This document shows, one piece after another, positions 14,851-43,100 of a stretch of 64,000 bases of DNA. The notes beneath the pieces were generated by a model. It was not told where the DNA came from and did no database searches. It saw nothing but the letters and a program-made list of their open reading frames with translations. Source of the DNA: Arabidopsis thaliana (taxonomy: Eukaryota > Streptophyta > Magnoliopsida > Brassicales > Brassicaceae); contig NC_003074.8 of assembly GCF_000001735.4 (NCBI RefSeq), forward strand, positions 12,400,101 through 12,464,100, in the 5' to 3' direction. Both the position numbers and the translations under genes were made by a program. Positions within the stretch are counted from its first letter, which is position 1, and each line of letters starts with the position of its first letter.

Positions 14851-14869
14851 TGGCGTGTGCTACGTTACG

Positions 14870-15360
14870 GCTGATTTGTAAAAGGTTGCCTGAGTTATAC
14901 GATAACCCAGACAACGGTATGACTGAGTTAAGGAATGTTGTCTGAGTTATAAGAATTTATAGCCTAACCCAGACAACGTTATGTCAAAGTTATGAGAAAA
15001 CGGCTGGCTTATTCCCTCGACACAGCTGAGTTATATTTTTGGACGGTTTAGTTATGGGATGATGTGACGGCTGAATTATGATCGAGTGTTATAAATCAGC
15101 CGTAAAGGGGAAGATTACTAAATAACTTAGCCTTGTTACGGCAGACTTATGTGCAAAAAAATTAATTACTATAATAGCATGCAGTTACGGACGAGTTTTT
15201 TAAACGTTACGGCTGAGTTAGTTGAGTTACGACATTACACAGCTAACTTAACTTTGTTTTTTTTGCTTTTTTAATTACGGTTAAAGTATTCATGTTGCGA
15301 CTGACTTATAGATTTGCTTGATGGCTGAGTTATCAAATGTTCGTTTGGTGGCTTACTTGC
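14870..15360 (+). repeat. GGCTGAGTTA motif array upstream of MULE transposase
   Basis: About fifteen copies or near copies of TTACGGCTGAGTTA, mostly on the plus strand, with two reversed-type variants (ATAACCCAGACAACG). Spacing is irregular at 20-50 bp. No gene. The array lies just upstream of the transposase start at 15557, where a promoter would be. Confidence 0.8.
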
Positions 15361-15556
15361 CACCTCATCAATTCAAAACGACGTCGGCTGTAATATTCCA
15401 TGTCAGCATCATCAATGGAAATACGAAACGTCCCTTGCTTCTTTATCTCGTCTTTCCGGTCTGTGTTTAACGCCTGAGCGTTGGAACATCACCGAAACTT
15501 CTATCTAATCATCTTTTTCTTCGTTCATCTTCAATTTCTTTCATCTTTCTCTCGAT

Positions 15557-17978
15557 ATGGCTGATCCCGTTTCGGTCATAGTTGTTTCCGGTATTTGGGT
15601 TAAGAAATAGATATTCGTATTTAACCACGACGAAAGAGGGTGTAGAGTTGTGCAGCTAGAAGCGGAAACAACGCACGATAGGCTTTTGAAGCTGGTGGTC
15701 GATGATTACGGATTTAATCAGTCGACCCATCAGTTAAGGCTAAGTTACATGTTCTCCAACAAGACTCAGAAAAATATGTCGTTCGATACTTCATCAGTGT
15801 ATATCTCTAATGATCGACAGTTGCAATGTTATCTAGGTCTCTGTGTGGAGTTTACAGCGAAAGAGTCAAGGGATATAAGTCGGAAGGATGGATCTTGAGG
15901 AAGGATGAAACGGCCTATTGAATCTGACTCAAGAGTAGAATCTAGATTCGAAGTTTCGGGTAGGCCAACGATACAGTAGCAAATTCGAGTTGGAGTATCG
16001 ACTCAAACTTTTTGCGATAAGGGATGGATTTGATTTTGATGTACCAATATCTAATACTACTACAGTGAATTACCAGTGCTGGGTTGATGGATGTCGTTGG
16101 AGTGTTCGTGCATCTAGACAAGGGGATGAGCCTTATTTTTATGTTCGTATATACGATTCGGAACACACATGTTCTGTGACGAAACGTTCTGATCGATCCC
16201 AACAAGCAACACTTGATGTTCTTGGAGTTCTTTACAGGGACTATCTTGGTGACATTGGTCCGGATGTAAAACCAAAAACAGTCAAAATAATCATCAATAA
16301 GCATTTTCGAGTAAAGGTAATTACAATGTTTCGACTGACTTATTATTATATGGCTGACTTATAGATATATTACGGGTTACTTATGGATATATTATGGCTG
16401 ACATATAATTACACTCCGGTTGATTTATGACCCTTTTACAGCTGCCTTAACATCACTTTGTGGCTAAGTTGTGTTATAGTTTGCCTAAGTTGTACATATA
16501 TTATGGCTGACTTATAAATTAATATGTTTGTGTTAACAGATGGGTTATTGGAAGTCATACAAGACATTGAGGGTTTACAAGGGAGCTCACTCTAGGAACC
16601 CTTGATAGTAGTTTTGAAGAACTGCCTTCTTACCTATACATGATAAGACAGACAAATCTGAGTACAATCGCACGTCTTCAAATTGATGAGAGTGGAAGAT
16701 TCAACTATATGTTCATTGCTTTTGTTGCCAGTATCGCTGGGTTTCATTTCATGCGCAAAGTTGTTGTTGTCGACGGTACGTTTCTCCATGGTAGTTACAA
16801 AGGGACGCTCCTAAGAGCCCTAGCTCAGGATGGTAATTTTCAGATTTTTCTGTTAGCTTTTGGTGTAGTTGACACTGAAAATGATGAATCTTGGCGGTTG
16901 TTTTTACGCAACTCAAAGTTGTTATTCCTGACGCAACGGACCTGGCGATAATCTCGGACAGACATAAGTCAGTAGGGAAAGCAATTGGTGAAGTGTATTT
17001 GTTGGCTTCTCGTGGGATTTGCACTTACCATTTGTATAAGAACATTTTGGTAAAATTCAAAGAAAAACATATGTTCCCTCTCGTGGAAAAAGCGGCAAGG
17101 TATTTTAGGCGGACTGATTTTGATGACGCGTTCAACGAGATTCAAGAGCGTGATCCTCAACTACATGCATACCTCCAAAGAGCGGGTGTTCAAATGTGGG
17201 CGTGTGTTCATTTTCCCGGTGATAGATACAATTTAATGACTACGAATATAGCGGAATCAATGAACACAACACCGTCAAAAGCCATAAATCTTCCCATAGT
17301 TCAACCGTTAGAAGCGATAAGATAGATGATGACAAGATGGTTTGCTGAACGGAGAGATGATGCGAGCACGGAGCAAACTCACCTCCCACATGGTATTGAG
17401 AAACTGTTACAGGTAACTCAGCTGTAACTATGTGTATAACTCAGTCCTCAAATAATGATAAACAAGACATAATAAGAATAACTCAGCCATAACGTCTTTG
17501 TTTTTTTTTCCTTCTGTCTAATAAGCATGTGTCAAGACTTATGGATGTACAAACGATTGATGCTTTTCGCGTACAAGTAACTTATGGAACATCTTTGCAT
17601 GTTGTAAATGTGGATGCAAAAAGAAGCGCATGCCGTCTTTTCGAGAAAGAGAAATTACCATGCATCCATGCAATCACAGCTGCAAAGCATATGTGTGTGT
17701 CTCGTATATCCCTGTACAGTCCTTACTATAAGAGCAGTTATTTGGTCAATGCGTACGTTGGTGCAATCATGCCTTCAGATACGGAAGTCCCTGTTCCTCA
17801 AATTGTAATTGACCAACCGTGCTTACCTCCGATTGTTGTTAACCAACAGGGCAGACCCAAGAAACTAAGGATGAAATCAGCACTAGAAGTAGCCATTGAG
17901 AATAAACGCCCTAGGAAGGAACACGCATGTTCTCGATGTAAAGAAGTTGGGCACAATGTTAAAACTTGTCGTGCATAG
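15557..17978 (+). pseudogene. MULE transposase (MURA-like) pseudogene
   Basis: Segments in order: a PB1-like N-terminus (15557-15895; TAG at 15608-15610); a zinc-binding DNA-binding domain (15987-16314, YQCWVDGCRWSVRAS ... FYVRIYDSEHTC); a short exon (16541-16602, WKSYKTLRVYKGAHSRNP); the MULE catalytic domain (16603-17325) with D in VVVDGTFLHG, D in AIISDRHKSVGKAI and E in NIAESMN; then a SWIM zinc finger (17600-17700, ACRLFEKEKLPCIHAI) and a CCHC knuckle (CSRCKEVGHNVKTC) at the C-terminus. A frameshift lies near 16895 and a stop after QPLEAIR at 17325. Two introns (16315-16540, 17413-17525) hold TTATGGCTGACTTAT-type motifs. An active copy would cut and paste the element in the nucleus. Confidence 0.9.
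16315..16540 (+). repeat. Motif-bearing intron of the MULE transposase
   Basis: Between GTAAAGGTAATTAC and TTAACAG lie about six variants of TTATGGCTGACTTATA, close to the element-wide GGCTGAGTTA motif. Their presence inside an intron shows that the motif is confined to non-coding parts rather than only to the ends. Confidence 0.65.
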
Positions 17979-18660
17979 TATTGTTTGCACGAATTGTATG
18001 TTTCTTCTTTCCCTTGTTTGGTAAATGTTATATGTATTTCGTGTCAATTGTAGACTCTAAGCACCATAATATTTGCAATTTCTTTAACGTCCCGGCTGAT
18101 TTATTTTTGATAATGTCTTGTCGTTTTAAATGTTGGGGTTGAGTTAGTTAAATATGGAAGACTAAAGGTTGGGCCATTTTATATGTTGCGGCTGAGTTAT
18201 CTAAATAAGGAAATTGAAAGGTTCAGTTATTTTACATGTTACGGCTGAGTTATCTAACTAGGAAAGTCAAAAGGTTCAGTCATTTTACTTGTTACGGCTG
18301 AGTTATCTAAATAGGGAAGTCGAAAGGTTAGGTCATTTTACTTGTTACGGCTGAGTCATCTAAATAGGGAAGTCGAAAGGATCGGTCATTTCATATGCCG
18401 TTTTACGACTGAGTTATGCGGTTTTACGGTTGAGTTATATTTGAATTATGTTATTTTACGACTAAGCTATGGAGGTAGGACAATGGCTGAGTTATCTGAA
18501 TTATGTTACTTGGCGGCTGAGTGATTCTACTATTTAGCTGAGGTATATTACAGATCAAATATGAACATTTTGAAGGCTAAGACAATATGAAACTTCCCAT
18601 AAATATATGTTTGAAGGATACATAGGAGGAAATTAAAACTAAACAATATGAAACTTCAAG
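17979..18660 (+). repeat. GGCTGAGTTA array downstream of MULE transposase
   Basis: After the transposase 3' end the array 18090-18550 contains about a dozen copies of TTACGGCTGAGTTATCTAAA. Several sit in a short tandem unit of about 55 bp (AAATAGGGAAGTCGAAAGG, 18190-18400). No gene here; the 60-codon frame at 18342 is repeat-derived. Confidence 0.75.
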
Positions 18661-18689
18661 CAGCATGACCCGATTCCTTCCATCTTGCA

Positions 18690-19696
18690 TTAGTCGACGG
18701 CCATTTTTATCTCTACCACTTCTTCAATATTGTGTTTGGTAGTCACATCTGATATGGTCGAACGATTGAAAATCGTCACGTGTTGGGGGCCAGTATGATA
18801 CCTAACGATCCTCCACCAAGTGAGTGCAATAACAATATTGTCATTGCGAAAAGATCGAAACCTACTATCGAAGTCAACCGCCATTTGGCCAACAACCTCA
18901 CATTTCCATGTCACCTTGCTGAAACAGAATAGAGCATTGTTACAATTATACCCCTCTCAAGGAAAATACATGATGAAAAGAAAGAAATTTAAAAGGAAGT
19001 GATCGAAAGAAATTGTACTATTTGTCCATAATCTTGAAGGGAAGTATGAATCCGTTTATCTCGACACCGTTGTGTGAGATATTTCTCATACATCCGATAT
19101 CGACGTGCACCAACTAAATCTTGGAGTATGAAATAAAAGTTAAAAACATGCATGTCAAAGGTGAAAGTATGAAATCTGCATTCCATACGTATTACTTACC
19201 GACCAAAGTATTTGTAGGAATGATTTTTTCAATAATGTTGTCAAAAGGTGTGAATCTGTTAAGTAAAACAGTTTTCCTTGGGTCGGACATTATGACCAAT
19301 TGCTTCCATGAACTCAATCATGTAGTGGTGAGTTGTTGCTCGGATTAGTCCACCGTTTGCAATGACACGAAAAGTTGAGATTGATTTCCATTGATTCTCT
19401 TTGAGCATATCACAGTAACATTGTGAAAAACGTCTTCCGATTATAGGCTCAATTTGTATTCCCTATGAAAACAACATCGGAGGGTAAGTTATATAGGGAA
19501 TAAGATAGGAATAAGGTTAAGTATGACTTGTAAGAAGAGTGAAGATTCCATTAATTACCCATTCATCAACAAAGACGACCTGTAGTTCGAATGTGTTATC
19601 TCTGTATAACTTTATGTACGTTCTAAGAACCATAACACAAATTGTCCATCCAGTTATGAAAGGAGACAAGTCGCAAAAACCGTGGAAATACACCAT
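18690..19696 (-). pseudogene. RPA1-like OB-fold protein (DUF223 type) in the MULE, degenerate
   Basis: Exon 1 (19696-19559) starts MVYFHGFCDLSPF and includes TGWTICVMVLRTYIKL, the N-terminal OB-fold pattern of plant replication-factor-A-like transposon genes. Exon 2 (19462-19200) has GIQIEPIIGRRF ... ISTFRVIANGGLIRATTHHY, which matches the DUF223 pattern, then a frameshift into TPFDNIIEKIIPTNT. A third segment (about 19112-18990) has an OB-strand-like FILPFKIMDK in one frame. The last exon (ends 18690) has NIVIALTWWRIVRYHTGP and ISDVTTKHNIEEV, the usual C-terminus. Introns are bounded by GGTAATT and ATAGG-type signals. Single-stranded DNA binding is the family's expected activity. It is oriented opposite to the transposase. 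The frameshift makes it a pseudogene. Confidence 0.65.
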
Positions 19697-19759
19697 GTTG
19701 AAATTTAGAGTCGTAGAAAAGTGAAGAAATATTTTGATTGTGATATTCTGTTTGTGAGA

Positions 19760-20455
19760 GTTTAGCCTTCGGGAGTTTAAAGGAGCAGCTGTTTTTATAG
19801 GCGTATAAAAACGTTGTTAATTGGGCTGGATATAACCGTAAATCGGTTAGTTAGCAAATCGAATGTAACCAGCAGCTTTATAACTATTGACAACTCAGCC
19901 GTAATGTGGATTAACTCAGCCGTAATAGCTCATTTTCCTGCAAAACTCAGCCGTAACCATTTAAAATTTCCCGCCAAACAGTCATAGACGCAACCTTTCG
20001 TATTCATTTCTCTATTTTTTTTTGTATAATTCTACATAACTCAGCAATATTGTTACATGTTACACCTAAGTTATCTAAATAGGGAAGTCAAAAGGTTCTG
20101 TCATTTTATATGTGGTTTACGGCTGAGTTATTTGGTTTAACGGCTGAGTTATCTAAACAGGGAAGTTGAAAGGTTTTATAGCATTATAACTATTGACAAC
20201 TCAGCTGTAATGCCTGGTAACTCAGCCATAACAATATATTTTACCGCCAAACTCAGTCGTAACATAGAAAACTTTCCCACCACACGGTCAGAAAACTCAG
20301 CCGTTTCATTGTTACATTTCCTGCCAAACTCAACTGTAACCTAGAAAACTTTCCCACCAAGCGGTTACGGACGCAACCTTTCACATTCTTTTTTTTCTTA
20401 TATATATGTTACTTCATCTCATCATTTAGGCGTCTCATACTCTCTTCCTAACGAC
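19760..20455. repeat. Mixed-orientation motif array between divergent MULE genes
   Basis: Motifs occur in both directions here (AACTCAGCCGTAAT at 19893, 19915 and 19945; TTACGGCTGAGTTATTTGG near 20118; AACTCAGCTGTAAT at 20197). The block lies between the OB-fold gene (minus) and the gene at 20456 (plus) and probably holds both promoters. This is the switch point: mostly GGCTGAGTTA on the plus strand to the left, mostly TAACTCAGCC to the right. Confidence 0.7.
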
Positions 20456-20948: not shown

Positions 20949-21440
20949 GTGCTTTTGTATCTCTTACTTGTCTTCCCTTTTAAACTTAACAACTATGTTT
21001 TTATATCTCCTTTTTTGGTAATGGTTTTAAATCTCCTATTATCTACGATTGTCTTTTCACTATAATCAGTTGTTATCGCTTGATGTCACTTGTTAAATTT
21101 TATCATAATTTAGGCGTAACTCAAACATAACTCAGCCATATCAATTGATTAACTCATTCGTATCAATAGATTAACTCAGACACAACATTATAATAACTCA
21201 ATCATAGCGTTGAATTAACTCAGCCACAACATTACCCGTATAACTCAGTCATAGCGTTGAATTAACTCAACAACAATATTAACTTAACTCAGCAATAACA
21301 TTATATTAACTCAGCCATAACATTAGATTAACATGGCCGAACACACAATACCATTTCATTACAAGCCAATACTAAAAATAAAATGAATTAACCTTAGAAG
21401 CAAGATAAACATCAAACACATAATGGAATCCAACAGCAAA
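20949..21440. repeat. TAACTCAGCC motif array
   Basis: 21110-21335 holds about nine copies of AACTCAGCCATAACATT and variants, separated by 10-20 bp, in the 3' region between the gene at 20456 and the GRF gene. No gene is seen. Confidence 0.7.
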
Positions 21441-21444
21441 CACA

Positions 21445-21998
21445 TCATCCAAACATCAAACAAACTATTAGCCAAGAAGAAGCCTTTGTTCGTTGGTTTT
21501 TCGGAACATTAGGATACCAAGTACAATGACATTGATAATAAAGCCAAGACAAAAACAGCAAAGTTTGATCATCAATTGCCATTTCTGGTTTTCCCTTTCG
21601 CTCCTCATTACTTCTTCCTTCAGTTCTTTCACCATCCCCTGTAATGCTTCTAGCTCGACTGCAACCGGACTTGGCAGCGTTTATCTCACTGTCCATGGTG
21701 GACAATTTTGGCCAACTGTCTACAACCACTTCGTATGTACCATCTTCGACCCATTTAAACAAATGGTCCTGCATTTTCAATCACTAACCAGTTAACAACG
21801 AAACCAATAAAACCCAAAATCAATTATACTTACATCTTTACGCGTATGACAACGGAAGTATGGTCTTCCAGGGTTCTTTGCTGACGTCGATGTATAGATG
21901 ACCACGTCTAATCCATGATGACACTTTGATGGTAACCCACGTCCCCAACGGCTTACGGATTGCGTACTCGAAATCGAGTTCTCAGAATTGCTACTCAT
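21445..21998 (-). CDS. GRF-type zinc finger protein carried by the MULE
   Basis: Two exons (21998-21834, 21768-21445) give 162 codons plus stop. The N-terminus is Ser-rich; then the GRF zinc finger GLPSKCHHGLDVV ... NPGRPYFRCHTRKD and, across the intron, DHLFKWVEDGTYEVVVD. Zinc ligands visible are C-x-H and the later C. In plants GRF fingers are often followed by a coiled coil and a C-terminal membrane helix. In the chosen frame the tail is hydrophilic, but a +1 frame near 21560-21500 reads CCFCLGFIINVIVLGILMF, so a frameshift probably removed a transmembrane anchor. GRF domains bind nucleic acids. The role in the element is unknown. Confidence 0.65.
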
Positions 21999-22228
21999 TT
22001 CTTTAGCTATAGCTTGGGAGTTCAGAGAAGAAAAATAAGAAAGAATGAAGCTCCAGATCTGAAACCAGAAATTGGATTTTTCTAACTTAGGTTTTGATTT
22101 TGGAGATTTATAAGTGGGGATCTTTCGTTTATGTCACAATGACGTCTTATGTGGTCACTAATGGAGACTCTTTCACAACCGACGTCGTATCTGGTCAATA
22201 ACAGAGACTCTTTTTCTCTGTATTTTGA

Positions 22229-25200
22229 CATAACTCAGTCGTGACGCAGGCATAACTAAGCAATGTGACTGTTATAACTCGGCCAAACCCTAAAATTGCT
22301 TTCCTTAAGCCATCAGTTGGTACAATCAAGTAATTAACATATCATATTCACTTTCCAACTAGTAGAATCATGAAACTAGCTCATATTCTGTATACTTTAT
22401 CCGACATCATACTTTATCCAACATCATACCCAACAACATCATTCCTAGAAGTTTGGTCAACATAATTTGTCAATAGACCCTTAGTGCAAACCCAATTTAT
22501 TTTCTGTTTTGATATTATAGATCTTGACACTAATAGAACCAACAATTTGGTGGCTAGTTTGAAATCTCATAATAACATTTGGTTTCTCATAACTCGATCA
22601 AACCACGAAATCTTCTTGCATTACTCAGCCGTGACGTATTGGTATTCCACCGCCAAACAGAAAATTTGAATATTTGAGGGTTCAGTTATTCGAACTCGTT
22701 TGAATTATTTTGAATATTAACTGTTGGCTTGTGTTCGTGTGAATATGGAACCAATCATTATTGGCGGTTCCCCATAAAAACACTTTTTGTAATCTCGATA
22801 ATGATAAAATAATGGTTTATGAACCCATTGAGATGACTCAAGAATTTCGCTATTTCGATTTTGCTAGTCTTTGGAACAGCGTAGCGACGGATAATTCAGA
22901 ATCAGAATAGGTCCACCAGTTCAAACATACAATATTAATGTGTTGTTACTCAGCCGCAAAGCTTTTATAACTTAGCCACTTCTAAATTTATTCACCAATA
23001 TTTGATTAGTGCTTTTTAGCATACACGACTATATAGATTAAGTGCTTTAGAGTGCCCTATTAATTGAAGACAAGATGATGGTGCAGGGATCTGTATGTTT
23101 ATTCCTAGAGAAATTATATCTCTTATTTAGGAATAAACTCAGCCTAAACAACACGTAATATTCTATTCTATATGAGTAAGGGACATTAGTAAAACCAACA
23201 ATAATGCGAGTATACAAATGGGCCTATTAATAACATTTGGTTTTCTCATAACTCGGTCGAGCAACGAAATCTTCTAACATAACTCAGTCGTGACGTAGGC
23301 ATAGCTAAGCCATATGACTGTTATAACTCGGCCGAACCCTAAAAGTGCTTTCCTTAAGCCATCAGTTGGTACAATCAAGTAATTAACATATCATAATCAC
23401 TTTCCAACTAGTGGAATCATGAAACTAGCTCATATTCTATATACTTTATCCAACATCATACCCATACATTGTTAAGCTCTACCTAACTTCCGTTCCTAGA
23501 AGTTTGGTCAACATAGTTTGTCAATCGACTCTTAGTGCAAACCCAATTTATTTTCTGTTCTAATATAATAGACCTTGACACTAATAGAGCAACCAATTTG
23601 GTTGCTAGTTTGAAATCTCATAATAACATTTGGTTTCTCATAACTCGGTCAAACCACGAAATCTTCAGGCATATTTCAGCCGCGACGTATTGTTATTGTA
23701 CCGCCAAACAGAAAATTTGAATATTTGAGGGTTTAGTTATTCGAATTAATTTGAACTCGTTTGAATTATTTTAAATATTAACTGTTGGCTTGTGTTCGTG
23801 TGAATATGGACCCAATCATTATTGGCAGTTCCCCATAAAAATACTTTTTATAATCTCGATAATGATATAATAATGCAATCTCGATAAACTCAGCCTAAAC
23901 AACACGTTAATTCTATTCTATTTGAGTAAGGGACATCAATAGAACCAACAATAATGTTAGTATACAAATGGGCCTATTAATAACATTTGGTTTTCTCATA
24001 ACTCGGTCGAACAAGAAATCTTCTTACATAACTCAGTCGTGACGCATGCATAACTAAGCAATGTGACTGTTATAACTCGGCAAACCCTAAAAGTGCTTTT
24101 CTTAAGCCATCAGGTTGTACAATCAAGTAATTAACATATCATATTAACTTTTCAACTAGTAGAATCATGAAATTAGCTCATATTCTATATACTTTATCCA
24201 ACATCATACTTTATCCAACATCATACCCAACAACATCATTCCTAGAAGTTTGATCAACATAGTTTGTCAATCGACCCTTAGTGAAAACCCAATTTATTTT
24301 CTGTTCTGATATAATAGACCTTGACACTAATAGAGCAACCAATTTGGTTGCTAGTTTGAAATCTCATAATAACATTTGGTTTCTCATAACTCGGTCAAAC
24401 CACGAAATCTTCAGGCATATTTCAGCCGCGACGTATTGTTATTGTACCGCCAAACAGAAAATTTGAATATTTGAGGGTTTAGTTATTCGAATTAATTTGA
24501 ACTCGTTTGAATTATTTTAAATATTAACTGTTGGCTTGTGTTCGTGTGAATATGGACTCAATCATTATTGGCAGTTCCCCATAAAAATACTTTTTATAAT
24601 CTCGATAATGATATAATAATGCAATCTCGATAAACTCAGCCTAAACAACACGTTAATTCTATTCTATTTGAGTAAGGGACATCAATAGAACCAACAATAA
24701 TGTTAGTATACAAATGGGCCTATTAATAACATTTGGTTTTCTCATAACTCGGTCGAACAAGAAATCTTCTTACATAACTCAGTCGTGACGCATGCATAAC
24801 TAAGCAATGTGACTGTTATAACTCGGCCAAACCCTAAAAGTGCTTTTCTTAAGCCATCAGGTTGTACAATCAAGTAATTAACATATCATATTAACTTTTC
24901 AACTAGTAGAATCATGAAATTACCTCATATTCTATATACTTTATCCAACATCATACTTTATCCAACATCATACCCAACAACATCATTCCTAGAAGTTTGA
25001 TCAACATAGTTTGTCAATCGACCCTTAGTGAAAACCCAATTTATTTTCTGTTTTGATATTATAGATCTTGACACTAATAAACCAACAATTTGGTGGCTAG
25101 TTTGAAATCTCATAATAACATTTGGTTTCTCATAACTCGATCAAACCACGAAATCTTCTGGCATAACTCAGTCGTGACATATTGGTATTCCACTATCAAA

Positions 25201-25350
25201 CATAAAATTTGAATATTTGAGGGTTTAGTTATACAAATCAATTCGAACTCGTTTGAATTATTTTTAATATTAATTGTTGGCGTGTTCATGTGAATATGGA
25301 CCCAGTCATTATTGGCGGTTCCCCATAAAAACACTTTTTGTAATTTTGAT
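22229..25350. repeat. Four-copy tandem repeat, unit about 746 bp
   Basis: The marker CATAACTCAGTCGTGACG recurs at 22229, 23278, 24027 and 24773, giving spacings of 1049, 749 and 746 bp. Copies 2-4 are very similar; copies 3 and 4 look nearly identical over hundreds of bases. Each unit carries ATAACTCGGTC, AACTCAGTCGTGACG and other variants of the element motif. Each also carries a 61-codon open frame (QTQFIFC.DIIDLDTNR) at 22484, 23535 and 24281, which is closed in copy 4. The frame has no recognisable domain and I treat it as repeat-derived. Copies 1-2 have an additional stretch of about 300 bp. Confidence 0.85.
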
Positions 25351-25378
25351 AATGATATAATAAAGAATATTATTTCGT

Positions 25379-25878
25379 ATGGAAATAAGGATGACAATGA
25401 GGTACGGCGAAATCAGGAGGCGCGATAAGGGCGTTCTGATCGAGTGTGATTGCAATGCTAAAGTTGTCGTTGCCACTTCTCGTGATCCTGTTACAAGCGG
25501 AAAACTGTATTTCAGTTGTCCGTATGAAATATCAGTTGTAAGCATCTTTTTTGAGTTATGATTCTTTATTTTATTTCTTTTATTTTTGTATCCCTATGAA
25601 TCAACCTCTTATTTTTCAGGGTCCCGGTCGAGGCTGCGGTTTCAAGAGATGGTGGACTGTTGCATTGTGTGACGAGTTTGACATGATAAAAGAGGAGACT
25701 ATTGTGATGAAGAAGGATCTGGAAGCAGCCAATAAGCGCGTCGAGGCTCAGGCGGAAAAGATCTTTTTTATGGAAAAGAAATTTGAAATGTTAGAGATGA
25801 ATTATGAGCTTGAAGAAGTATCTGTGAGCATAGCTAAATTTGATTTTTTCAATTTGGACTTCCTTGTACTGTCAATTT
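25379..25878 (+). CDS. Second GRF-like zinc finger/coiled-coil protein in the MULE
   Basis: Exon 1 begins MEIRMTMRYGEIRRRDKGV at 25379, with a C-x-C pair (IECDCNAKVVV), TSRDPVTSGKLYFSCPYE, and a GTAAGC donor at about 25539. After CTTATTTTTCAG (25608-25619) exon 2 gives GPGRGCGFKRWWTVALCDEF, then a coiled coil (MIKEETIVMKKDLEAANKR ... FMEKKFEMLEMNYELEE), and ends near 25878. Spacing C-x-C ... C ... C-x-F-x-x-W matches GRF fingers. The length is about 140 residues. The gene is opposite in direction to the GRF gene at 21445-21998 and separated from it by the 746-bp repeats. Reading frames are open, so it may be intact. Confidence 0.6.
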
Positions 25879-25879
25879 A

Positions 25880-26320: not shown

Positions 26321-26343
26321 AACAATCACATCCATCGCCACCT

Positions 26344-31356: not shown

Positions 31357-32555
31357 TGATATAGGTCAAATTAATCCTAAGACCACTCTCTCAAATAAAG
31401 AAGTCAGTTACAGCACTTTGGGATCGAATTCACAAAGTTCTCGAATCACGCAATAAACTAAGGTTTTGAATTAAGCTAAGTAAAACAGTAATTAAATTAA
31501 AGAGAAACAAAAGTAAACAACAGCAATCGATTGGATGGTTGTGAAACAAGATTATAAAAGCGTCAAACTTAGGGTATTCTCAGGAAATAGATGATAGTAG
31601 ATCTAGAAATAACTAAGTTGTTATCGAACCGTTCTCGAACTCAAACTATGATTTTAGAGTAACCGGTGGCGTTCCGCAAAACTCCCTATACCTATAGCTA
31701 AGAATAACCAGAGAAGCCGAGAGAACTTTAACTTAAACATGCATTATTATCAAGTTTGATTAGTTCACCTAGTATCTAAACCAGAGCCCTTCTATGAGCC
31801 TACCTGTTCTTTCTTAAATGCCTAGGCTCATCTATGATGGATCAAATAGCAAGTACCTATGGTGGGCATACTTATTATCTAAGAACAAGTTCTAGTTAGC
31901 TACTCTAGAACTAGCATTAAGAACAATCAAGATGAAGAATTTCTACAGATAACCTAGCAAGGGGGCAATCTACTAAATCATCTATAACCCTAATGAGAAA
32001 CCCTAAACCTAACAGAAAAACTACTCAAGCATGATGAATGAAGTAAACAACATGATTAGAATAGAAATCAATGAATAAAACAAGAAGAAAATAGAGTAAG
32101 AAAGATCCAAAGGGAGTTTCCACAGGGTTTTGCTCCCCAAGTACAAAAGAGATAGAAAATAGCCTCTCCAAGCTTCGGGTCTAAACATTGACCTAAGAAC
32201 TATATATATATATGTCTTAAAAACGTGATGGGCCTTAATTAAACATAAGAGAAAGTTCTGGACCAAATTTGGAAATCTTCAAAACATCCATAAGTTGCGT
32301 CTCAAAATTGCCGTCAGGTATTGGTGTCGCTCGACATCAGGGGTGGTGTCGTTCGACACCTACGTGCATTTTCGTCTCCGGATTGCTTATGCAGCTTAAG
32401 TTTTCTGTTGATCTCCAGAATGCTCCATAATCTCCAAATGCATCCCAAACATGTAAAGACCTGAAAAGAACTAGAAAAGGCTCTAGAAATAACAATTAGG
32501 CTCCAAAACTTATACCTAAATAATAGCTAAAATCGGTAAAAATAGGGTTATATCA
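31357..32555 (-). repeat. 3' LTR of the gag-only element
   Basis: Left-hand copy on the plus strand. It has the paired GGTGTCG...CGACACC motif near 32324-32361 and, on the minus strand, a TATATATATA-type stretch near 32204-32212 just downstream of the motif, so the motif occupies U3. Confidence 0.88.
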
Positions 32556-33660
32556 ACTCCCCCAAACTTAGCTTTTGCTTGCCCTCAAGCAAAACACTAA
32601 AGCCGAACCCGTGGAAGAGGTTTGAAAACAAAGGAACTCCCAGCATTCTCTAGTGTATTGCCATGATCATTCTAACAAAATCTATATGCCGATCAGTTCT
32701 AATCAAATTCTAACCAACATGTACTTCTCTGCAAGCTTACACAACATTCTCTATTTTATACCTAAGTTCCACAACTATATCCACCAGGCTTTCATCACTG
32801 GGTCTCATCAAACAAGCTAACATTCTAGATCCTTCTAGACTCATTCATGTACTATACCATGATCAATCGACCATTCTTTTATCATTTTTTTCTTTGGTGT
32901 TCTTTCTCTCCCCGAGACTTATTTTGTTTTTCGAGAGTAAACAAAGGGGAACTCGCATACTGGATCCACACCCTCGGCATTTTTCCAACCTTTGTAATTG
33001 ATCATTCCAAATAATATATAATAATGGGGTCATAGGAAATATTCCTATCCCTAGAAACTATCTGAAAATCATCTCAATCTCTCATTATATTTTTTTTCTT
33101 TTTATAAGAGGAGATGAACATATTCTTTTTATCACATTGGTCTCAATATAAGGTATGAACAAGGAGTCAAGATCTATGAATACTAACTGTTTGAAGAGGT
33201 AAAAGGAAGAGCAGTGAGATTAGCTCCAGCCTTAGTGGTTGAATTGGAAACTAGGATATCCTCAAGTCTGTTGGTTTGCCATCTAGTTTTCCAATAGTCG
33301 GATTGAGTCGAACCTCATCATTAATCAACCAAGCAATAATCTAAAGAATAGAGATCATAATTCCAAACAAAATTTTGACTCAATAAAACGACTCAAAAAT
33401 AAGAAAAAGAAGAGTAAGAATAAGACTCAAAAAGAAAAACATAGTTAGTAACTGCCTCCCCCAGACTTAAACGACACTGTCCCCAGTGGTATTCAAATCC
33501 AGAGTAAGCGAAAAAAATAAAAGAAAAACGAAAAATAAAAGAAAAAGAAAAAGAAAACCATATCAGTGGGTTGCCTCCCACTAAGCGCTTGTTTAGAGTC
33601 AATAGCTTGACTTTGATGGAGTTTGGGGATCAGGTGGATCAGATGGAGGAAAAAAATACT
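32556..33660 (-). other. 3' non-coding interior of the gag-only element, with PPT
   Basis: The PPT (minus strand AAGTTTGGGGGAGT) abuts the 3' LTR. The rest of 32572-33660 shows no credible gene: pyrimidine-rich runs and a short AAGAAAAAGAAAAAC stretch at 33500-33560. A second TAAGTCTGGGGGAGG block lies near 33455-33470. Confidence 0.65.
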
Positions 33661-33682
33661 TCCTAGTAGAACCCCGCATCAT

Positions 33683-35700
33683 CTAAGGTAGCGTATAGGC
33701 AGTTGGTGTGTGCGCTCTACCAAGGAAGTAAGGAATGTCAGCAGAGTAGGACAGAGGTATGGGTGGTCTACTCCACTTTCCTGCACAATCATCAAAAGAA
33801 AGAACAAGCACTCGACGAGAAACTCGTGGCTTGCTTAACCGTAAAACAGTTTTTGGAGATTTGAAACTCTTATTGATGAAACCAGGAGGTTTAGGAGGAG
33901 GAGATGAGTACCTTTGCCGTTTCGGAGTTGCAGCAAAGGGTAGAGGTGCAGTGGGAGACGTGACTGTAGTGCCTGGAGTACCGGCTCTGAACTCAAACCG
34001 AAAACTAGCTCTAATAAAAAAATCTTGCTTAGCCTGTGTGGGGTGTTGATCGACACAGGTAATGGTATCGATCGACACCATCTCTGCACATCGATTCTCA
34101 GCAACGAATCTGGAGCTTGCTTCATGTGGATGCTTGCTGTTGCTGAGTACCTGTTCTGAGACAACCATTATCTTTGTCTTGTCATCTTGCTTCTCTGGAG
34201 CATCATCTCGTAGCATATCAATCTGAAGAAGGGGTGACAATTTCTCTATATCAATCGGAGGCAACTGAAGTGGAGTCTCTTCCATGATACCCATGCAATG
34301 CATCTTTGAAATCTCCTGCTTGGACTGTCGATGCAGAAGACAAGGAACTTGTGGTGTGAAGACTTGTCTAGTAACAGGTGGAGATGCAAGACATATAGGA
34401 GGAGTTTGAGTCCAGTGTAGATCGACACTAGGTGAGTGTCGAATGACACCACTGTCTAGAATCAAGCCTGCTCTGTCAAATGTCAACATTGTATTGTCTG
34501 TTTGGTGCTGGTGTCGATCGACATGAGGTGGGTGTCGTTCGACACCATCAGGGTCGACTCTGGTCGATCTGGCTTTGTCACAGCTTGGCTTCTCTCTGGA
34601 GAATTGTTGGTGTCGATCGACGCAGATAATGGTGTCGTTCGACACCATCGGGAATAAGTTCCTCCTCCTCTGTGAAAGTATTGATTCCACTCGACAAAGT
34701 CAAAACAGAGTCGTCAAGATTAATAGGTGTCGATCGACACCCTGATATATCGTTCGACACTGAGACGTTTCCTGCAACTGGACGAGATGAAGTTTGAGCT
34801 GAACATTCGCGACGAAGGATTGGGTTTAGTTGCTTTCCACTGGGTAGTGTGACTGCATTGATAGAGGCTGATGGAGGTGAGAGTTCGGATATATGAGAGC
34901 GTAGATTGTCAATCTTGCTATTTAGATTCGTGTAGAGAGAATCATGTTTGCTTTCGAGCTTTGTTTGGCCTGCAAGAAGCAGCGCAAGCATAGACTCCAT
35001 TCTGGTCTCTGATGAGGGTGGAGGGGAAGATAGGAGCAGAAATTGCTGAAACAGGAGTCGCTTTATTTGCGGTGGCTATCTCAGCTGAAATTCTTCGTTC
35101 AGTGTCAAATTCATGTGTCGAACGACTAGTTAAAGCATTGGTAATGAGGAGTAATGCTTCACTAGTAGTTCTTGTCATGAAGTTACAGTAGCTCGCTGCA
35201 TCAAGTTGAGCCTGGTATGGCATGGCTATCCCTCTTTAGAAGATATTGATGAGTTGGCTCTCTTGGAAACCATGTTGGGGACATTCTCTCTGATAGGATT
35301 TGAATCTGATCCAAGCTGCATTCAAACCTTCTGTTGGAGCTTGAGAAAACGAAGAGATCTTCTCCCGCAGTAATTATGTCAATGAATCATCAAGGAAGTG
35401 GATCATGAATGCATTCTTCATGTCAGTCCAATTCGTTAGTGAACCTGGTTCAAGTTGTTGCAGCCATGATGTTCCTCTGCCTGCGAGAGAGTGTGGGAAA
35501 AGTTTGCAAAGAAGATAATTAGCTGGTACACCTTCTACTTTGATTGAGGACACTAAATCTTCGAAGACTTCTAGATGATCTAGTGGTGATTCATCAGAAT
35601 GTCCTCGAAACTTTCCTCGTGAAACAAGAGTATAATTAGGCAGGGTGAATAGCAAAGTCTTCTCTTGCAAAAGGAGGTAGCAGGATCGCTGATCGATTGG
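33683..35700 (-). pseudogene. gag-like coding region of the gag-only element
   Basis: From the 5' end: a Retrotrans_gag-type domain at 35670-35374 (FRGHSDESPLDHLEVFEDLV ... KLFPHSLAGRGTSWLQQLEP ... WTDMKNAFMIHF); a segment at 35223-34942 (MPYQAQLDAASYCNFMTRTT); a coiled-coil linker (35000-34890) with VTLPSGKQLNP; then a 335-codon frame (34690-33683) ending in RPPIPLSYSADIPYFLGRAH. Because TGTCGATCGACAC occurs in it repeatedly, the protein shows VDRH, SIDT or CRST fragments according to frame. Frameshifts separate the parts. It would supply capsid only. The C-terminal part matches nothing I know, and its long open frame suggests past selection. Confidence 0.7.
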
Positions 35701-35948
35701 AGTAGAAAAGATCAGCTCTGTTGAAGTCGCCTATGGTAGCAGGTCTGTTTGCAGATGGTGTCGATCGACACCCAGTTGGTGTCGGTCGACACTGTCGTCG
35801 AAATCTGCCAGCAGTTTGTTGCGTTCCATCTTTTAGCTCCCCTGTTATAGGAAAAAGAAGAAAGAAAATGCGTGAGAAACAAAAGAAAGAAAAATAAAAG
35901 CTTAGTCTAAATTCTACACCTAGTCTAATGGTGACTCAAAGAGATCTT

Positions 35949-35962
35949 CGGCAACGGCGCCA
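35949..35962 (-). other. Primer-binding site of the gag-only element
   Basis: Minus strand TGGCGCCGTTGCCG follows the 5' LTR end with an AATT spacer. This is the usual Athila/Tat primer site and fixes the element's direction. Confidence 0.85.
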
Positions 35963-35966
35963 AATT

Positions 35967-37157
35967 TGATATAGGTCAAATTAATCCTAAGACCACTCTC
36001 TCAAATAAAGAGGTCAGTTGCAGCACTTAGGGATCGAATTCACAAAGTTCTCGGATCACGCAATAAACTAAGGTTTGGAATTAAGAAAAGTAAAACAGTA
36101 ATGAAAATAAAGAGAAACAAAAGTAAACAATAGCAATCGATGGTTGTGAAACAAGATAATAAAAGCGTCAAGCTTAGGGTATTCTCAGGAAATAGATGAT
36201 AGTAGATCTAGAAATATCTAAGTTATTATCAAACCGTTCTCGAACTCAAACTATGATTTTAGAGTAACCGGTGGCGTTCCGCGAAACTCTCGATGACTAT
36301 AGTTAAGAATAACCGGAGAAGCCAAAAGATCTTTAACTTAAACATGCATTATTATCAAGTTTGATTAGTTCACCTAGTATCTAAACCAGAGCCCTTCTAT
36401 GAGCCTACCTGTTCTTTCTTAAATGCCTAGGCTCATCTATGATGGATCAAATAGCAAGTACCTATGGTGGGCATACTTATTATCTAAGAACAAGTTCTAG
36501 TTAGCTACTCTAAAACTAGCATTAAGAACAATCAAGATGAAGAATTTCTACAGATAACCTAGCAAGGGGGCCATCTACTAAATCATCTATAACCCTAATG
36601 AGAAACCGTAAACCTAACAGGAAAACTACTCAAGCATGATGAATGAAGTAAACAACATGATTAGAATAGAAATCCCTGAATAAAACAAGAAGAGGATAGA
36701 GTAAGAAAGATCCAAAGGGAGTTTCCACATGGTTTTGCTCCCAAAGTACAAAAGAGATTGAAAATAGACTCACCAAGCTTCGGGTCTAAAACAATGACCT
36801 AAAAACTATATATATGTCTTAAAAACGTGATGGGTCTTAATTAAACATAGGAGAAAGTTCTGGGCCGAATTTGGAAATCTTCAAAACATCAATAAGTTGT
36901 GTCTCAAAATTGCCGTCAGGTATTGGTGTCGCTCAAAATCAGGGGTGGTGTCGTTCGACACCTACGTGCATTTTCGTCTCTGAATTGCTTCTGCAGCTTA
37001 AGTTGTCTGCTGATCTCCAGAATGCTCCATAATCTCCAAATGCATCCCAAACATGTAAAGACCTGAAAAGGACTAGAAAACACTCTAGAAATAACAATTA
37101 GGCTCTAAAACCTATACCTAAATCATGGCTAAAATCGGTAAAAATAGGGTTATATCA
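35967..37157 (-). repeat. 5' LTR of the gag-only element
   Basis: Same ends as the partner LTR. The minus strand has the GGTGTCG...CGACACC pair near 36925-36962, upstream of an ACTATATATATG candidate TATA (about 36810). Confidence 0.88.
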
Positions 37158-37585
37158 CTACACCCAATTCACTGAAGAACGCTTTGTAGTCCGCTTTAAG
37201 CTCAAACTTTTCTGGAGGCAGTGGATCTGTGTTTAAACCCGTGATATGATAAAACTCGTTCAAGCCAAACCGGATGGGTTGACCAGCCACGAGACACCAA
37301 AGCTCCTTCTTCAGTACTCTTAACTGTCTGCATAGTAGATAATGTACAGTCTTACAAACCATACAAAATGGCTATAAACAAGTTTAGCAATTAATCCAAG
37401 CGGTGTCTCTTTCAGTTCATCCCATGTATCTTGTCTTATTGATTCTCTAATCATAGGGAAATCTCCAAGCTTGATGTTGTGATTAATGGCTTTAGCCTCC
37501 AGATTAGAATCCCCCTCTGGGTAAAGTATTGGAGGGTAATCCCTTGCTTGGTCTTCAGCCATAAATCAGTCGTAAGGATACAATA

Positions 37586-37990
37586 CACTACAAGAAAACA
37601 GGTAAACGACGACTACAATCAGCGACAATAAACGTAGTCGTAACATTATACGACTAGTTGGCGACGGATTTACGACTCGCCTGCGACAACACGAAAAATT
37701 GTAGTCACATAGTCGTTGTTTTACGACTATCGTATGCAGTCGGCAAAGTGTCGGCAAGTGACGACTATTTGACGATTATATTATTGGAGGGATATTGTTG
37801 TCGTTGTTTAGTCGCTAATTAACGACTATTCTACCGTCTATTTTATTTAGTCGCTAATATGGCGACTACAGGCCGACCAAGTCGTCTAGTCGTCCTGTAG
37901 TCGTAGAAACGTCGCACCGTAGTCGTATAAAGTAGATGGAAAACATGTTTTGCATTGTTAAGTAGGTACACCTAATTATTTAGTTGTAGT
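37586..37990 (+). repeat. 5' TIR and subterminal repeats of the CACTA element
   Basis: After the TIR about fifteen copies or variants of TAGTCG(T/C)(A/T)A or ACGACTA occur within 350 bp. In En/Spm such subterminal motifs bind TNPA; here that role is inferred. Confidence 0.85.
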
Positions 37991-38111
37991 CGTAAATTAG
38001 TCACAAAAATTGGCCTATATAATAAACGTTCACGCAACTCTTCTTTCACCAACAAATCAAAACAACAACAACATCAAAAAGAAAAAAAAATACTAGTTAT
38101 TTTATTGTATA

Positions 38112-39660
38112 ATGGCGGGAAACTACAATTATGGCGGTACTGGCGGTTTCTATCGAGATTGGATGTACAAGAGATTTGATGAAGTGACGGGGAATTTGTC
38201 AGCCGAATACGTTGCAGGAGTTGAGCAATTCATGACATTCGCTAATAGTCAGCCAATAGTACAGAGTAGTCGAGGTAAATTTCATTGTCCTTGTAGTGTA
38301 TGCAAGAATGAAAAACACATCATCTCGGGTAGAAGAGTTAGTAGTCATTTGTTTAGTCATGGATTTATGCCTGATTATTATGTTTGGTATAAGCATGGAG
38401 AAGAAATGAATATGGATATAGGAACGAGTTACACGAATAGGACGTATTTTAGTGAGAATCATGAAGAAGTGGGTAATATTGTAGAAGATCCATATGTGGA
38501 TATGGTAAACGATGCATTTAATTTTAACGTGGGGTATGATGATAACTATCGTCATGATGATAGTTATCAGAATGTGGAAGAACCGGTCCGTAACCATTCA
38601 AATAAGTTCTACGACTTGTTAGAAGGTGCAAATAATCCTTTGTACGATGGTTGTCGTGAAGGGCAGTCGCAATTATCCTTAGCATCTCCACTCATGCACA
38701 ACAAGGCGGAGTATAATATGAGTGAAAAGTTGGTGGACTCCGTTTGCGAAATGTTTACAGATTTTTTACCAGAAGGAAACCAGGCAACCACTTCACATTA
38801 CCAGACCGAGAAGTTAATGCGCAATTTAGGACTTCCATATCATACGATTGATGTTTGTCAGAACAATTGTATGCTATTTTGGAAAGAAGACGAAAAAGAA
38901 GATCAATGTCGATTTTGTGGCGCGAAAAGATGGAAGCCTTAGGACGACCGTCGAAGAACCAAAGTACCATATAGTCGTATGTGGTATCTACCTATTGGGG
39001 ACCGGTTGAAGAGAATGTATCAGAGCCATAAGACAGCGATGGCAATGCGATGGCATGCTGAGCACCAATCAAAGGAGGGAGAAATGAATCATCCTTCAGA
39101 TGCAGCAGAGTGGAGATATTTCCAAGGGTTACATCCCGAGTTTGCCGAAGAACCCCGTAACGTTTATCTCGGGTTGTGTACTGATGGGTTCAATCCATTT
39201 GGCATGTCTCGTAATCATTCGTTGTGGCCTGTGATCCTAACTCCTTATAATTTACCCCCTGGTATGTGCATGAATACCGAGTACTTATTTCTTACCATTC
39301 TGAATTCTGGTCCAAATCATCCTCGAGCTAGTCTTGATGTCTTCCTCCAACCTCTTATTGAGGAGTTAAAAGAGTTGTGGTCTACTGGAGTCGATGCGTA
39401 CGATGTTTCATTGAGTCAGAATTTTAATCTAAAAGCAGTACTACTGTGGACGATTAGCGACTTTCCGGCGTATAGCATGTTATCAGGATGGACTACTCAT
39501 GGTAAATTGTCTTGTCCTGTTTGCATGGAAAGTACAAAGTCTTTTTATCTACCCAATGGACGGAAGACATGCTGGTTTGATTGTCAACGTAGATTTCTTC
39601 CTCATGGTCATCCATCCCGTAGGAACAGAAAAGACTTTCTGAAAGGAAGAGATGCTTCTA
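38112..39660 (+). pseudogene. TNPD-like CACTA transposase, N-terminal part
   Basis: Starts MAGNYNYGGTGGFYRDWMYK. Residues 10-100 fit the transposase-associated domain (Transpos_assoc), with zinc-type residues in KFHCPCSVCKN and HLFSHGFM. A linker follows, then the Transposase_21 (PF02992) N-part: CQNNCMLFWKEDEKEDQCRF, DRLKRMYQSHKTAMAMRWH, VYLGLCTDGFNPFG, LFLTILNSGPNHP, PAYSMLSGWTTHGKLSCPVC, RRFLPHGHPSRR. A single TAG at 38940-38942 interrupts it. After FLKGRDASSESS (about 39660) the rest of the catalytic domain is missing and the sequence joins the TNPA-like gene; a direct repeat TCGTCTCAAGGGAACAACTT (39667 and 39720) marks the deletion region. The product cannot be a complete transposase. 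Confidence 0.88.
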
Positions 39661-41815
39661 GCGAATCGTCTCAAGGGAACAACTTCGCGAGATTCAGACG
39701 CTCCAGCAAACAGCCACCCGTCGTCTCAAGGGAACAACTTCCAAGAGGAAGTTCCTGGGACGTTGCCGGAGCTACAAGAAGACTCGGCGTTGGCTCTGCA
39801 ATCGACACTCTCTGTGCCAAACCGGGAGCAGTGGTGTTGTGTCTTGTCTCCAATTCCCAAACCTAAAACCGAATGGTATGTTTTCTTCCTCTATTTTATT
39901 CTAGTGTTCTTAGCCTGTGTAGTGTAACTCGTGTTATGGTCTGTAGAATGGCTTGTTAGGGTTTGTGTAACATAGTAGAATCTGCCTTTGTTGGAGTTGG
40001 ATGTTTGTTAGGGTTTGTGTAACATAGTAGAATCTGCCTTTGTTCTAAACTCGTGTGTGATCTTGTTAAGTTCTTCAATTTGTCTATAATCTTGTTAGGT
40101 TATTTATTGTGTTCTGTGGTGAATCATGAACATAATTGTGGAACATTTGTTGATTGTTGAACTTAGCATGTTTTCGGCTTTGACATTGAGGATCTGTCTT
40201 TGTTCTATACTTGTCTATAATCTTGTTAAGTTCTTTATTGTGTTCTATTGTGAATCATGAACTTAATTGTGGAACATTTGTTGATTGTTGAACTTAGCAT
40301 GTTTTCGGCTTTGACAATGAGGATCTGTCTTTGTTCTATACTTGTTTATACTTGTTCATTACTGTCTATGATCTTGTTATGTTGACTATTGTGTTCTGTG
40401 TGTGATCTTGTCGGCTTATACTTGTCTAGAATCTTGTAAAATCTGCCTTTGTTCAATTATATAGTCTGCTGTAGTTGTAGTGTTTTGGATTTTAAACATG
40501 TTTACTTTCTGTCTGTGTTGCATGTGTTTGGAGGTTTACTCGCGACAGAGGATCTAAATTGGTTAGAAAGATCACACGGATTTTTACTCAAAAGTTCAAT
40601 GCTCCCTACTATAATTGGTCCTGTGTGCCATTGGATAAAAGAGAAAGATTGTTTTTAGAGTTTGCGGTAAGCTTCTTGTATTTCTTCAACTTTCATTAGA
40701 CTGTACTATTTAATCTGTCATTTGTTCACTAACTTCACACTTTTTTTGTAGAAAACTCACCATTGGGATCCTTTAATAACAGGGACAGTCCAATACTACT
40801 TCAATGAGATCGTTAAGAGGCGCTTGAAGGACATGGTTAGCACCGCAAGGAGAACTCGAGAGCAGCCTCCATGGATTGGAGAAACTCTGTGGAGAACCAT
40901 GTGCGACTACTAGGACACTGAAGAGGCACAGAAAAGGAGTAAGACATATTCCAAAGCTCGTCTCTCTGACCGTAACGGTCTCGGTCCTCACGTCCACTAC
41001 TCTGGGCCAAAGTCTTTCCAAGAAATCCAAGATGAATTGGTAAGTGTTTCTGCAATCTTCCCATGTGTTTTAGTGATGTTTGTTTAACTGTGTGTGATGT
41101 TTAGTCTGTTGATAGTAATGAAGCTTGTGATCTGTGTTTGCAGGAAGAAAAAATGGGAAGACCTGTCCCTCTTGGTGAGGTGTTCATCCAGACACACACT
41201 AAGTCGGATGGGACTTATGTTGATCAGAAGGCATAGAAGATTGGTCTGGCGTATGAGCAGAATGTGAGAGAGAAGCTGTCTGAACTAGAGGCGGATGCTT
41301 CTGCTGTGTCTGATGGCTCTTCACGTCCTCGGGATCTCACACTAGATGAGTATGCAGCCATATTTCTCGAGGTAAGATGTTCTTTGTCTTTTTCAGAGTC
41401 TTAGAGACATTTAGGATCTGTCACTAATTATCTTCCTCTTTATTTCTTGCAGTCCACAGAAAAGGATGCAAGAGGCAATCCTTATGGACTTGGCTGTCTT
41501 AAAGAAACTCTAGGCAGTGCCAACCGCCAACTCCCCGGAGACTCAACCTTTAAAGCCTTAGAAGAACGGCTGCAGGAAGCTCAGCGGCAAATTGAAGAAC
41601 AGGCTGCATATAACGAGAAGCGAGATGCTGAGATTGCTGCCCGAGAAGCCGAGACAGCCCGAGTCACAGCTGAGCAAAAGGACAAGCTCGAGCACTTGTC
41701 CTTAGTCGAGAAGTATCTCCGCCAAACCGATCCGCAGTTCTTGGACTTTATTGCCACACACTCTTCCACATCCACAGAGCGTATCCCAATTACTCCCCCA
41801 TCTAATGATCCATAG
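39661..41815 (+). pseudogene. TNPA-like CACTA protein (Transposase_24)
   Basis: Exon 1 fragment ends PKPKTEW at 39875 with the same TG|GT donor as the gene at 19-1303. Intron 39876-40533 contains a 60-bp unit in two tandem copies and a longer one repeated (TTGTTCTATACTTGTC...). Exon 2 (40534-40668) reads FTRDRGSKLVRKITRIFTQK, FNAPYYNWSCVPLDKRERLF. Exon 3 (about 40752-41040) has HWDPLITGTVQYYFNEIVKR, REQPPWIGETLWRTMCDY, stop TAG at 40912, and SDRNGLGPHVHYSGPKSF. Exon 4 (about 41144-41371) has GRPVPLGEVFIQTHTKSDG and a TAG at 41236. The last exon (41454-41815) ends in a coiled coil (LEERLQEAQRQIEEQAAYNE). It probably bound the TAGTCGTAAA subterminal repeats. Confidence 0.85.
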
Positions 41816-42626
41816 AATTTAGGTTTCCAAACACTAATTGTATCTTTCAATAAGTTGTATGTTTGAACAAGATAATTTTATGTTTTGAACTTGATTTTCA
41901 ATATATAAGCAGTGTTTTCATATTGTATAGCGTATCAATAACAAACAAGAACAATCGATGAACAAACAAGAACAAACAAGAAACCCATCACCTGATGACC
42001 AAATCTTTATTCGGACCAAACTATTAGTCGCAAAAAAGTAGTAAATAAGTAGCAGTATAGTCGCTGAATCGTCGTCAAGTAGTCACATAACTTTACGACA
42101 ATCATAAGACTAAACAAATTAGTCATAAAAGAATCGTAAAACTGACGTCCAATAGTCGTATATACTTATACGACTATGTTATGACAAAAAGTTTCAAATC
42201 CTTGGCAAGTACTTTTAATCGTCAAAGAGTCGTCGAATAGTCGTAAACATATTTACGACTACTTTACGACAACTGGAAACATACCCAGGGTTTATAATAA
42301 TTAATCGCAACATAGTCGTAAAGTCGTCGTAAACAATTAACGACTATGAAACGACTACATGTTCTCACACGCTCAGTACAGTACAAATAATCGTAGGATA
42401 GTCGTCAATTAATCGCCGACATAATACGACTACGTAACGACGATTTTTCACTGTTTAGTCAATTGTCGTATTATTGTCGTTGATCAACGACTAATAAACG
42501 ACTACTGTTTTTAGCGACTATGGATTAATGACTACAGTCATTAGTCGTAAATTAGTCGTATTAGCTTTAGTTACGACTACTAAACGACTGACTTGTAGGT
42601 CGTCAATCACCTGTTTTCTTGTAGTG
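41816..42626 (+). repeat. 3' subterminal repeats and TIR of the CACTA element
   Basis: After the gene end 42010-42608 carries more than twenty TAGTCGTAAA-type motifs on both strands, then the inverted TIR. No gene is seen. Confidence 0.88.
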
Positions 42627-43100
42627 ATAACTCAGTCATAACATAAACCAAACTCAGCCACAGATAACATAACTTAGTCAAAACATAAACCTAACTCAGC
42701 CATAGATAACATAACTTAGTCACAATATAAACCTAACTCAGCCACAGATAACATAACTCAGCCATAACATAAACCTAACTCAGCCATATCGTAATAGAAA
42801 CTCAGTCAAAACATAAACAAAACCATAAAATAAAAAAATCTCAGTCAAAACATAAACCAAACTCAGCCATAGCATAACCAAACTCATCCATATCGTAACA
42901 GAAACTCAGCCATAACATAAACAAATTCATCCATATCGTAACAGAAACTCAGCCACGGATTTAAGATTAAACCATAACTCAATCACAGCATATAACAAAC
43001 TAAGACACAGATGAATTGATAAATCATAAATCAGTCGGCAAACAAACGGTAACTCAGCCATCAAATCAAATAGATCTAACAAATCGGCACCATATGTCAA
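42627..43100. repeat. TAACTCAGCC motif array upstream of the ULP gene
   Basis: About twenty copies of AACTCAGCCATAACATAAACC and near variants with 25-30 bp spacing. On the minus strand this is the promoter side of the ULP gene, displaced by the CACTA. The array stops near 43065, which I take as the approximate end of the motif-bearing part. Confidence 0.78.

Follow-up and report, generated by a model that had tools for sequence, protein, structure and literature searches.

Why would the non-coding DNA of a single transposon be filled with copies of one short motif? The question is raised by a 64,000-nucleotide stretch of the Arabidopsis thaliana genome (contig NC_003074.8, positions 12,400,101 to 12,464,100; hereafter the window, with positions counted from its first letter), which we take to lie in the pericentromere of chromosome 3. 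Most of the motif sites in it belong to a VANDAL-like Mutator-like element (MULE) of the kind without terminal inverted repeats (non-TIR), which spans 14,860-43,695, two nested transposons included. We put at roughly four in five the probability that this motif, TTAYGGCTGAGTTAT, is where the DUF1985 (VANC-type) protein of the MULE clade to which the element belongs docks in a family-specific manner, and that anti-silencing explains the arrays as a whole.

Confinement of the motif to non-coding DNA of one clade

All 37 exact window copies of GGCTGAGTTA lie between 14,860 and 43,100, as do 95 of the 97 sites with at most one mismatch and 153 of the 177 with at most two, so that the 100-150 copies estimated in the original prediction, which had been made from this DNA alone, were a fair figure. 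The RTAAC extension that it described is likewise real, since the full consensus extends to GTTAYGGCTGAGTTAT. The non-coding DNA of the MULE carries 94 sites in 12,756 bp (7.4/kb) versus a mean of 0.55 and a maximum of 2 in 60 dinucleotide shuffles. Coding DNA, comprising 12 intervals that we drew from open reading frames (ORFs) and Pfam hits, has a single site in 5,238 bp (at 15,738), and five more ORF stretches tallied as non-coding have none. The two nested transposons act as an internal control with no site in 10,842 bp, and the window outside the MULE holds two in 35,164 bp. The motif is therefore not scattered through coding exons; it is nearly absent from the coding domains and the surrounding DNA, rather than wholly absent as had been claimed. 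It does populate the non-coding gaps, but not with the evenness implied by the statement that it recurs in every one of them: all 14 sites between 22,231 and 25,164 have a mismatch.

In place of the CpG form of the motif (TTACGG), sites frequently read TTATGG, the position before GG being C in 36% and T in 54% of 343 sites from the window and the clade loci. This is the pattern that methylation-driven decay would give, and both forms may be functional.

Across the 119.66 Mb searched (7 contigs), TTACGGCTGAGTTAT with at most one mismatch has 505 matches versus 8 for its reversed control. Of 86 exact matches taken from the 100 of these that were listed, 77 fall within 15 kb of a clade landmark, in stretches that make up 1.27% of the genome. 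As most of the landmarks were themselves found with array-bearing DNA, the independent test is the one by transposase, for which 30 loci of 151 matches were used. The 12 clade loci with at least 74% transposase identity, including the window itself (L009), have 5-19 motif sites each; the 18 loci with at most 64% have two in total over 61,347 bp, and within the 3.4 kb examined at sister loci of 57-64% identity, no motif stood out convincingly as arrayed. The best 30 of 150 DUF1985 matches, all elsewhere, hold nine sites in total and at most one per locus. With GGCTGAGTTAC, 66 of 96 matches (versus 16 for the reversed control) are near the clade; 24 of the other 30 are lone, and two at C1:11.70 Mb are part of a 10-site array. 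Every one of the 15 other right-end loci counted has the right terminal array, with 9-22 sites each. At the left end, 21 of 34 copies have neither the family transposase within 6 kb nor the right end within 26 kb, which indicates that non-autonomous or truncated copies also bear the array-carrying end. The genome-wide count and the confinement to relatives, which the original prediction had singled out for checking, thus agree with it on this point: going by transposase and right-end loci, the motif is neither equally common elsewhere nor missing from relatives.

Orientation and helical phasing of the arrays

The sites group into 14 clusters, and their orientation largely matches that of the neighbouring gene. 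Clusters on either side of the transposase gene and within it are mostly on the + strand, apart from three - sites in its intron at 17.4 kb and a further two in the left array; those around and between the coding segments of the DUF1985-Ulp1 gene are on the - strand. The left terminal array (14,888-15,747, +) has ten sites, eight of them on +, the last being the coding one, and the right terminal array (42,628-43,059, -) also has ten. Between them lie ten sites downstream of the transposase, mostly at 53-bp steps (18,094-18,524, +); eight on both strands (19,891-20,302); six at 22-, 25- and 44-bp steps (21,128-21,316, -); two arrays of eight and five sites (25,882-27,131, -); and, between DUF1985-Ulp1 coding segments, arrays of six (29,575-29,718, -) and of 13 sites, the latter mostly at steps of 21 or 40-43 bp (30,489-30,868, -). 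Arrays with unit lengths of 21, 22/44, 24/52, 53 and 63 bp have the motif in common. A four-copy repeat (22,223-25,365, -), with steps of 1,051, 746 and 746 bp, bears 14 one-mismatch sites. In a copy on C2 (C2:5,198,268-5,205,597) there are 10 occurrences of the exact 15-mer, spaced by 743-747 bp except for a single step of 1,350 bp.

Neighbouring sites on the same strand, at distances of 12-120 bp, show phasing at 10.5 bp in the window (R=0.63, n=68) and in 28 relative loci (R=0.69, n=374; in some cases two of these loci belong to a single copy). The best period is 10.5 in both alike, and none of 2,000 jittered sets scored as high. On-phase outnumber half-turn spacings by 48:6 in the window and 298:20 in the relatives, compared with 40:42 under uniform spacing. 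Among them are 17 and 78 odd multiples of 10.5 bp, respectively, which can arise from repeats of a 53-bp unit but not of a 21-bp one.

A VANC21-like protein encoded by the clade

The DUF1985/ULP product of the clade matches VANC21 by sequence and by fold, and is homologous to the DNA-bound domain of VANC21. Its best named DUF1985 relatives are from Arabidopsis thaliana. The DUF1985 domain of the clade's C2 copy scores 80.6 bits versus a cut-off of 35.1, and the match in the PDB was obtained with an alignment of 55 sequences (A2; predicted local distance difference test (pLDDT) score of the model, 72.6). In a Sinapis alba relative (P0048), DUF1985 and Ulp1 are joined in one protein, and in the broken gene of the window the Ulp1 C48 peptidase matches lie downstream of DUF1985 on the same strand. 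When the Ulp1 pieces were searched against the PDB, one had no match and the other retrieved SUMO proteases only at E 0.3 and worse.

The original prediction had proposed VANC-like recognition of the motif by one of the element's own products, whether DUF1985/ULP, GRF, OB-fold or an unknown small protein. The VANC21 homology favours the first of these candidates, but an intact factor would have to come from other copies: with both the DUF1985 and the Ulp1 exons interrupted, the window copy cannot make an intact DUF1985-Ulp1 protein, and is itself a broken relic target.

In a first alignment of 35 DUF1985 members (A1), two weakly match the Plant Mobile Domain (PF10536, best E 2.7e-4; first member 17.2 bits versus a cut-off of 34.9), known from MAIN/MAIL1, which act in silencing in the host, and two match the Homeodomain (best E 6e-5).

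Proposed mechanism and alternatives

We propose that copies with intact genes would make the DUF1985-Ulp1 protein, which would bind the phased TTAYGGCTGAGTTAT arrays in the non-coding DNA of clade members, non-autonomous and dead ones among them, and that this binding would trigger a local loss of silencing marks, presumably through removal of methylation, while most of the genome is spared. Homology makes this anti-silencing role a well-supported prediction. Several observations nevertheless weigh against it. The first DUF1985 model, from alignment A1 (mean pLDDT 53.3), matched no PDB entry at E 0.001. The ratio of nonsynonymous to synonymous substitution rates (dN/dS) of DUF1985 is 0.63, a mild constraint close to the 0.58 of the transposase (six pairs of four copies), and it exceeds 1 in two of the closest pairs. 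Of the clade's 12 transposase loci, five contain in-frame stops, and the copy in the window is likewise broken; the arrays therefore outlive the genes. When the distinct window spacings are counted once (29 values), they phase weakly (max-R P=0.24; P=0.035 at 10.5 bp), so that tandem duplication inflates the phasing signal, and the TTTACAAG arrays of another MULE family, considered below, lack phasing at 10.5 bp (R 0.18, n=22). Moreover, VANC specificity is itself imperfect, VANC6 also affecting AT9TSD1, which is unrelated to VANDAL, according to Hosaka et al. (2017, PMC5735166).

Might the arrays instead be subterminal repeats to which the transposase binds for transposition? They are dense at both ends of the MULE, and the 21 left-end copies that look non-autonomous or truncated still match the array-bearing left end. 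Most sites are internal, however, in introns, 3' flanks and intergenic gaps, where they are oriented largely with the neighbouring gene, and the VANC21 homology points to a specific binder other than the transposase; we consider this explanation unlikely. Neutral, satellite-like spread, in which the motif multiplied simply because the MULE non-coding DNA around it was tandemly duplicated, with no binder involved, would suit the many arrays that are tandem repeats of differing unit lengths, the amplification of the ~746-bp unit in a relative and the weak phasing of spacings counted once. It appears quite improbable in view of the persistence of one motif across all those unit lengths, its near absence from coding DNA and the tracking of the helix by the spacings, odd multiples of 10.5 bp included. 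As for binding by a host transcription factor, or a role mainly as targets of RNA-directed DNA methylation (RdDM) and small interfering RNAs, a host factor would have sites genome-wide, and confinement to one clade is more in keeping with a binder that the element itself encodes. This we hold to be very improbable, even though VANC target regions are enriched in RdDM targets (Sasaki et al. 2023, PMC10398659).

Returning to the docking of a DUF1985-Ulp1 protein as the preferred explanation, one elaboration deserves mention, if only as a doubtful one: a VANC-Ulp1 fusion aligned on one face of the helically phased GTTAYGGCTGAGTTAT arrays might lift silencing through local deSUMOylation of silencing proteins, as a VANC specificity not described before. 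If true, this would supply the effector step of VANC anti-silencing.

Anatomy of the element and its genes

Relatives align with the MULE from 14,860-14,862, a left end common to many copies, to ~43,690-43,697, the right end in nine of 15 right-end loci compared; the element is therefore longer than originally described, with its homology running on beyond the end placed at 43,100. That the region is one large Mutator-like unit holds for the MULE but not for 31,357-37,157 and 37,586-42,626, a nested long terminal repeat (LTR) retrotransposon and a nested CACTA element, which leave a MULE of only ~18.0 kb net. No long terminal inverted repeats were found, the longest inverted match between the end regions (on the right, 42,601-43,800) being 15 bp, and the ends as estimated for this copy, which is old, share no 7-11-mer as a target-site duplication (~9 bp expected for VANDAL). 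The LTR retrotransposon sits in the DUF1985 exon and has 1.2-kb LTRs that are 94.0% identical, TG...CA ends, flanks GTACA/CTACA and no motif sites. The CACTA element (+; PF13963, PF02992), in the right terminal region, has the ends CACTACAAGAAAACA...TGTTTTCTTGTAGTG, an ATA duplication and, again, no motif sites; within it is a 131-bp tandem repeat of 2.1 copies (40,080-40,350). LTR sequence with 72-81% identity to the LTR of the nested retrotransposon interrupts the Ulp1 domain at 27,613-28,755. Outside the MULE is a 25-bp tandem array of 12 copies with 90% matches (63,110-63,412).

Pfam scans were run on stop-free ORFs. The gene for the MuDR-type (MURA) transposase (15,611-17,975, +) yields PF03108, PF10551 and PF00872, all above cut-off, and weak SWIM and zinc knuckle matches; it is frameshifted near 16.9 kb, and its introns (16,352-16,514 and 17,414-17,488) carry motif sites. 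The main part of the DUF1985-Ulp1 (KIU-type VANC) gene (27,374-31,356, -) consists of Ulp1 pieces at 27,374-27,631 and 28,754-29,122 (PF02902, 1.2e-13 and 2.1e-11), middle ORFs at 29,132-30,436 and a DUF1985 piece at 30,870-31,356 (PF09331, 3.6e-7; 30.7 bits, below the cut-off of 35.1). The N-terminal part of the DUF1985 exon follows at 37,160-37,567 (-; ORF 37,323-37,565), 85-91% identical to the exon of relatives. DUF287 is absent from the Pfam hits in the window segments scanned, which do not take in every exon, and Ulp1-type VANCs may lack it. The remaining coding segments are DUF223 (19,520-19,816, -; E 2.9e-12), probably the OB-fold product of the original prediction, DUF730 (25,542-25,877, +; E 5.1e-35) and a weak GRF zinc-ribbon (21,448-22,133, -; PF06839 E=0.00097, below its cut-off).

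Relation to known VANC systems

VANC systems clearly exemplify transposons that shield themselves, and not the whole genome, from silencing. Another candidate protein-motif pair comes with the present clade, whose motif is its own, long, well defined and helically phased, and whose VANC is fused to Ulp1; the pair is useful for tracing specificity change in DUF1985, now that a VANC21-DNA structure exists, and any contribution of Ulp1. As the VANC mechanism is already established, the finding is of moderate weight: the pair, its phasing and the relic-target status of the window copy extend the field rather than surprise it. At least ten VANC systems are reportedly described in the abstract of EMBO J 2022;41:e110070, with specificity said to be set by motif sequence, density and helical periodicity, and with DUF1985, DUF287 and Ulp1 said to be gained and lost among VANCs; if so, the phasing is a rediscovery and the motif may already be catalogued there. 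By title, none of the listed literature matches to five motif 10-mers concerns VANDALs, which does not amount to absence from print.

According to Hosaka et al. (2017, PMC5735166), VANC demethylation is sequence-specific; VANC21 binds YAGTATTAY, arrayed in one orientation in non-coding DNA, and VANC6, whose targets carry AGTTGTCC/AGTTGTAC, binds a motif-dense region in vitro. The likeness to VANDAL21 (Hiun) is close: both are MULEs whose DUF1985 proteins share a fold, and both have family-restricted, one-orientation arrays of a short motif in introns, intergenic and terminal DNA, subject to tandem-repeat turnover (PMC5735166). The differences are that the motif here is GTTAYGGCTGAGTTAT rather than YAGTATTAY, as the original prediction had surmised, the VANC21 and VANC6 motifs numbering 0-1 per clade transposase or right-end locus, and that the protein is fused to Ulp1, with no DUF287 detected in the segments scanned. 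The transposase is only ~34% identical to that at C2:10,007,160, which we take to be Hiun, and ~33% identical to that at C4:5,949,108, presumably VANDAL6, which has another motif and belongs to another clade. Loci near 40% transposase identity carry GTACGTAC repeats and may, we assume, be the VANDAL1/2/22 group rather than the present clade; GTACGTAC/TACGTACA repeats are seen in L032, L033, L034, L036 and L062, which are loci near that identity or with another DUF1985. A further MULE family (L035, L037 and L038; transposase 38-39% identical) has its own arrayed motif around the transposase, with the core TTTACAAG within ATTTTACAAGGATTTTTAAAAG and steps such as 44 and 114 bp.

VANC1 targets VANDAL1, 2, 22, 1N1 and 2N1, and VANC systems compete with RdDM, as stated by Sasaki et al. 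(2023, PMC10398659). Ulp1-carrying VANC genes (KIU) act alike, on motifs in each other's non-coding DNA, according to a 2026 review (PMC13317346). The present clade resembles Kaonashi (KIU) in that its segments for DUF1985 and the Ulp1 C48 peptidase share a strand and lie next to a MURA-type transposase, and differs from these Ulp1-carrying VANDALs in having its own motif. At the level of sequence, then, the clade has the features of a VANC anti-silencing system, from which it departs in motif and lineage, and the predicted mechanism is not of a new kind.
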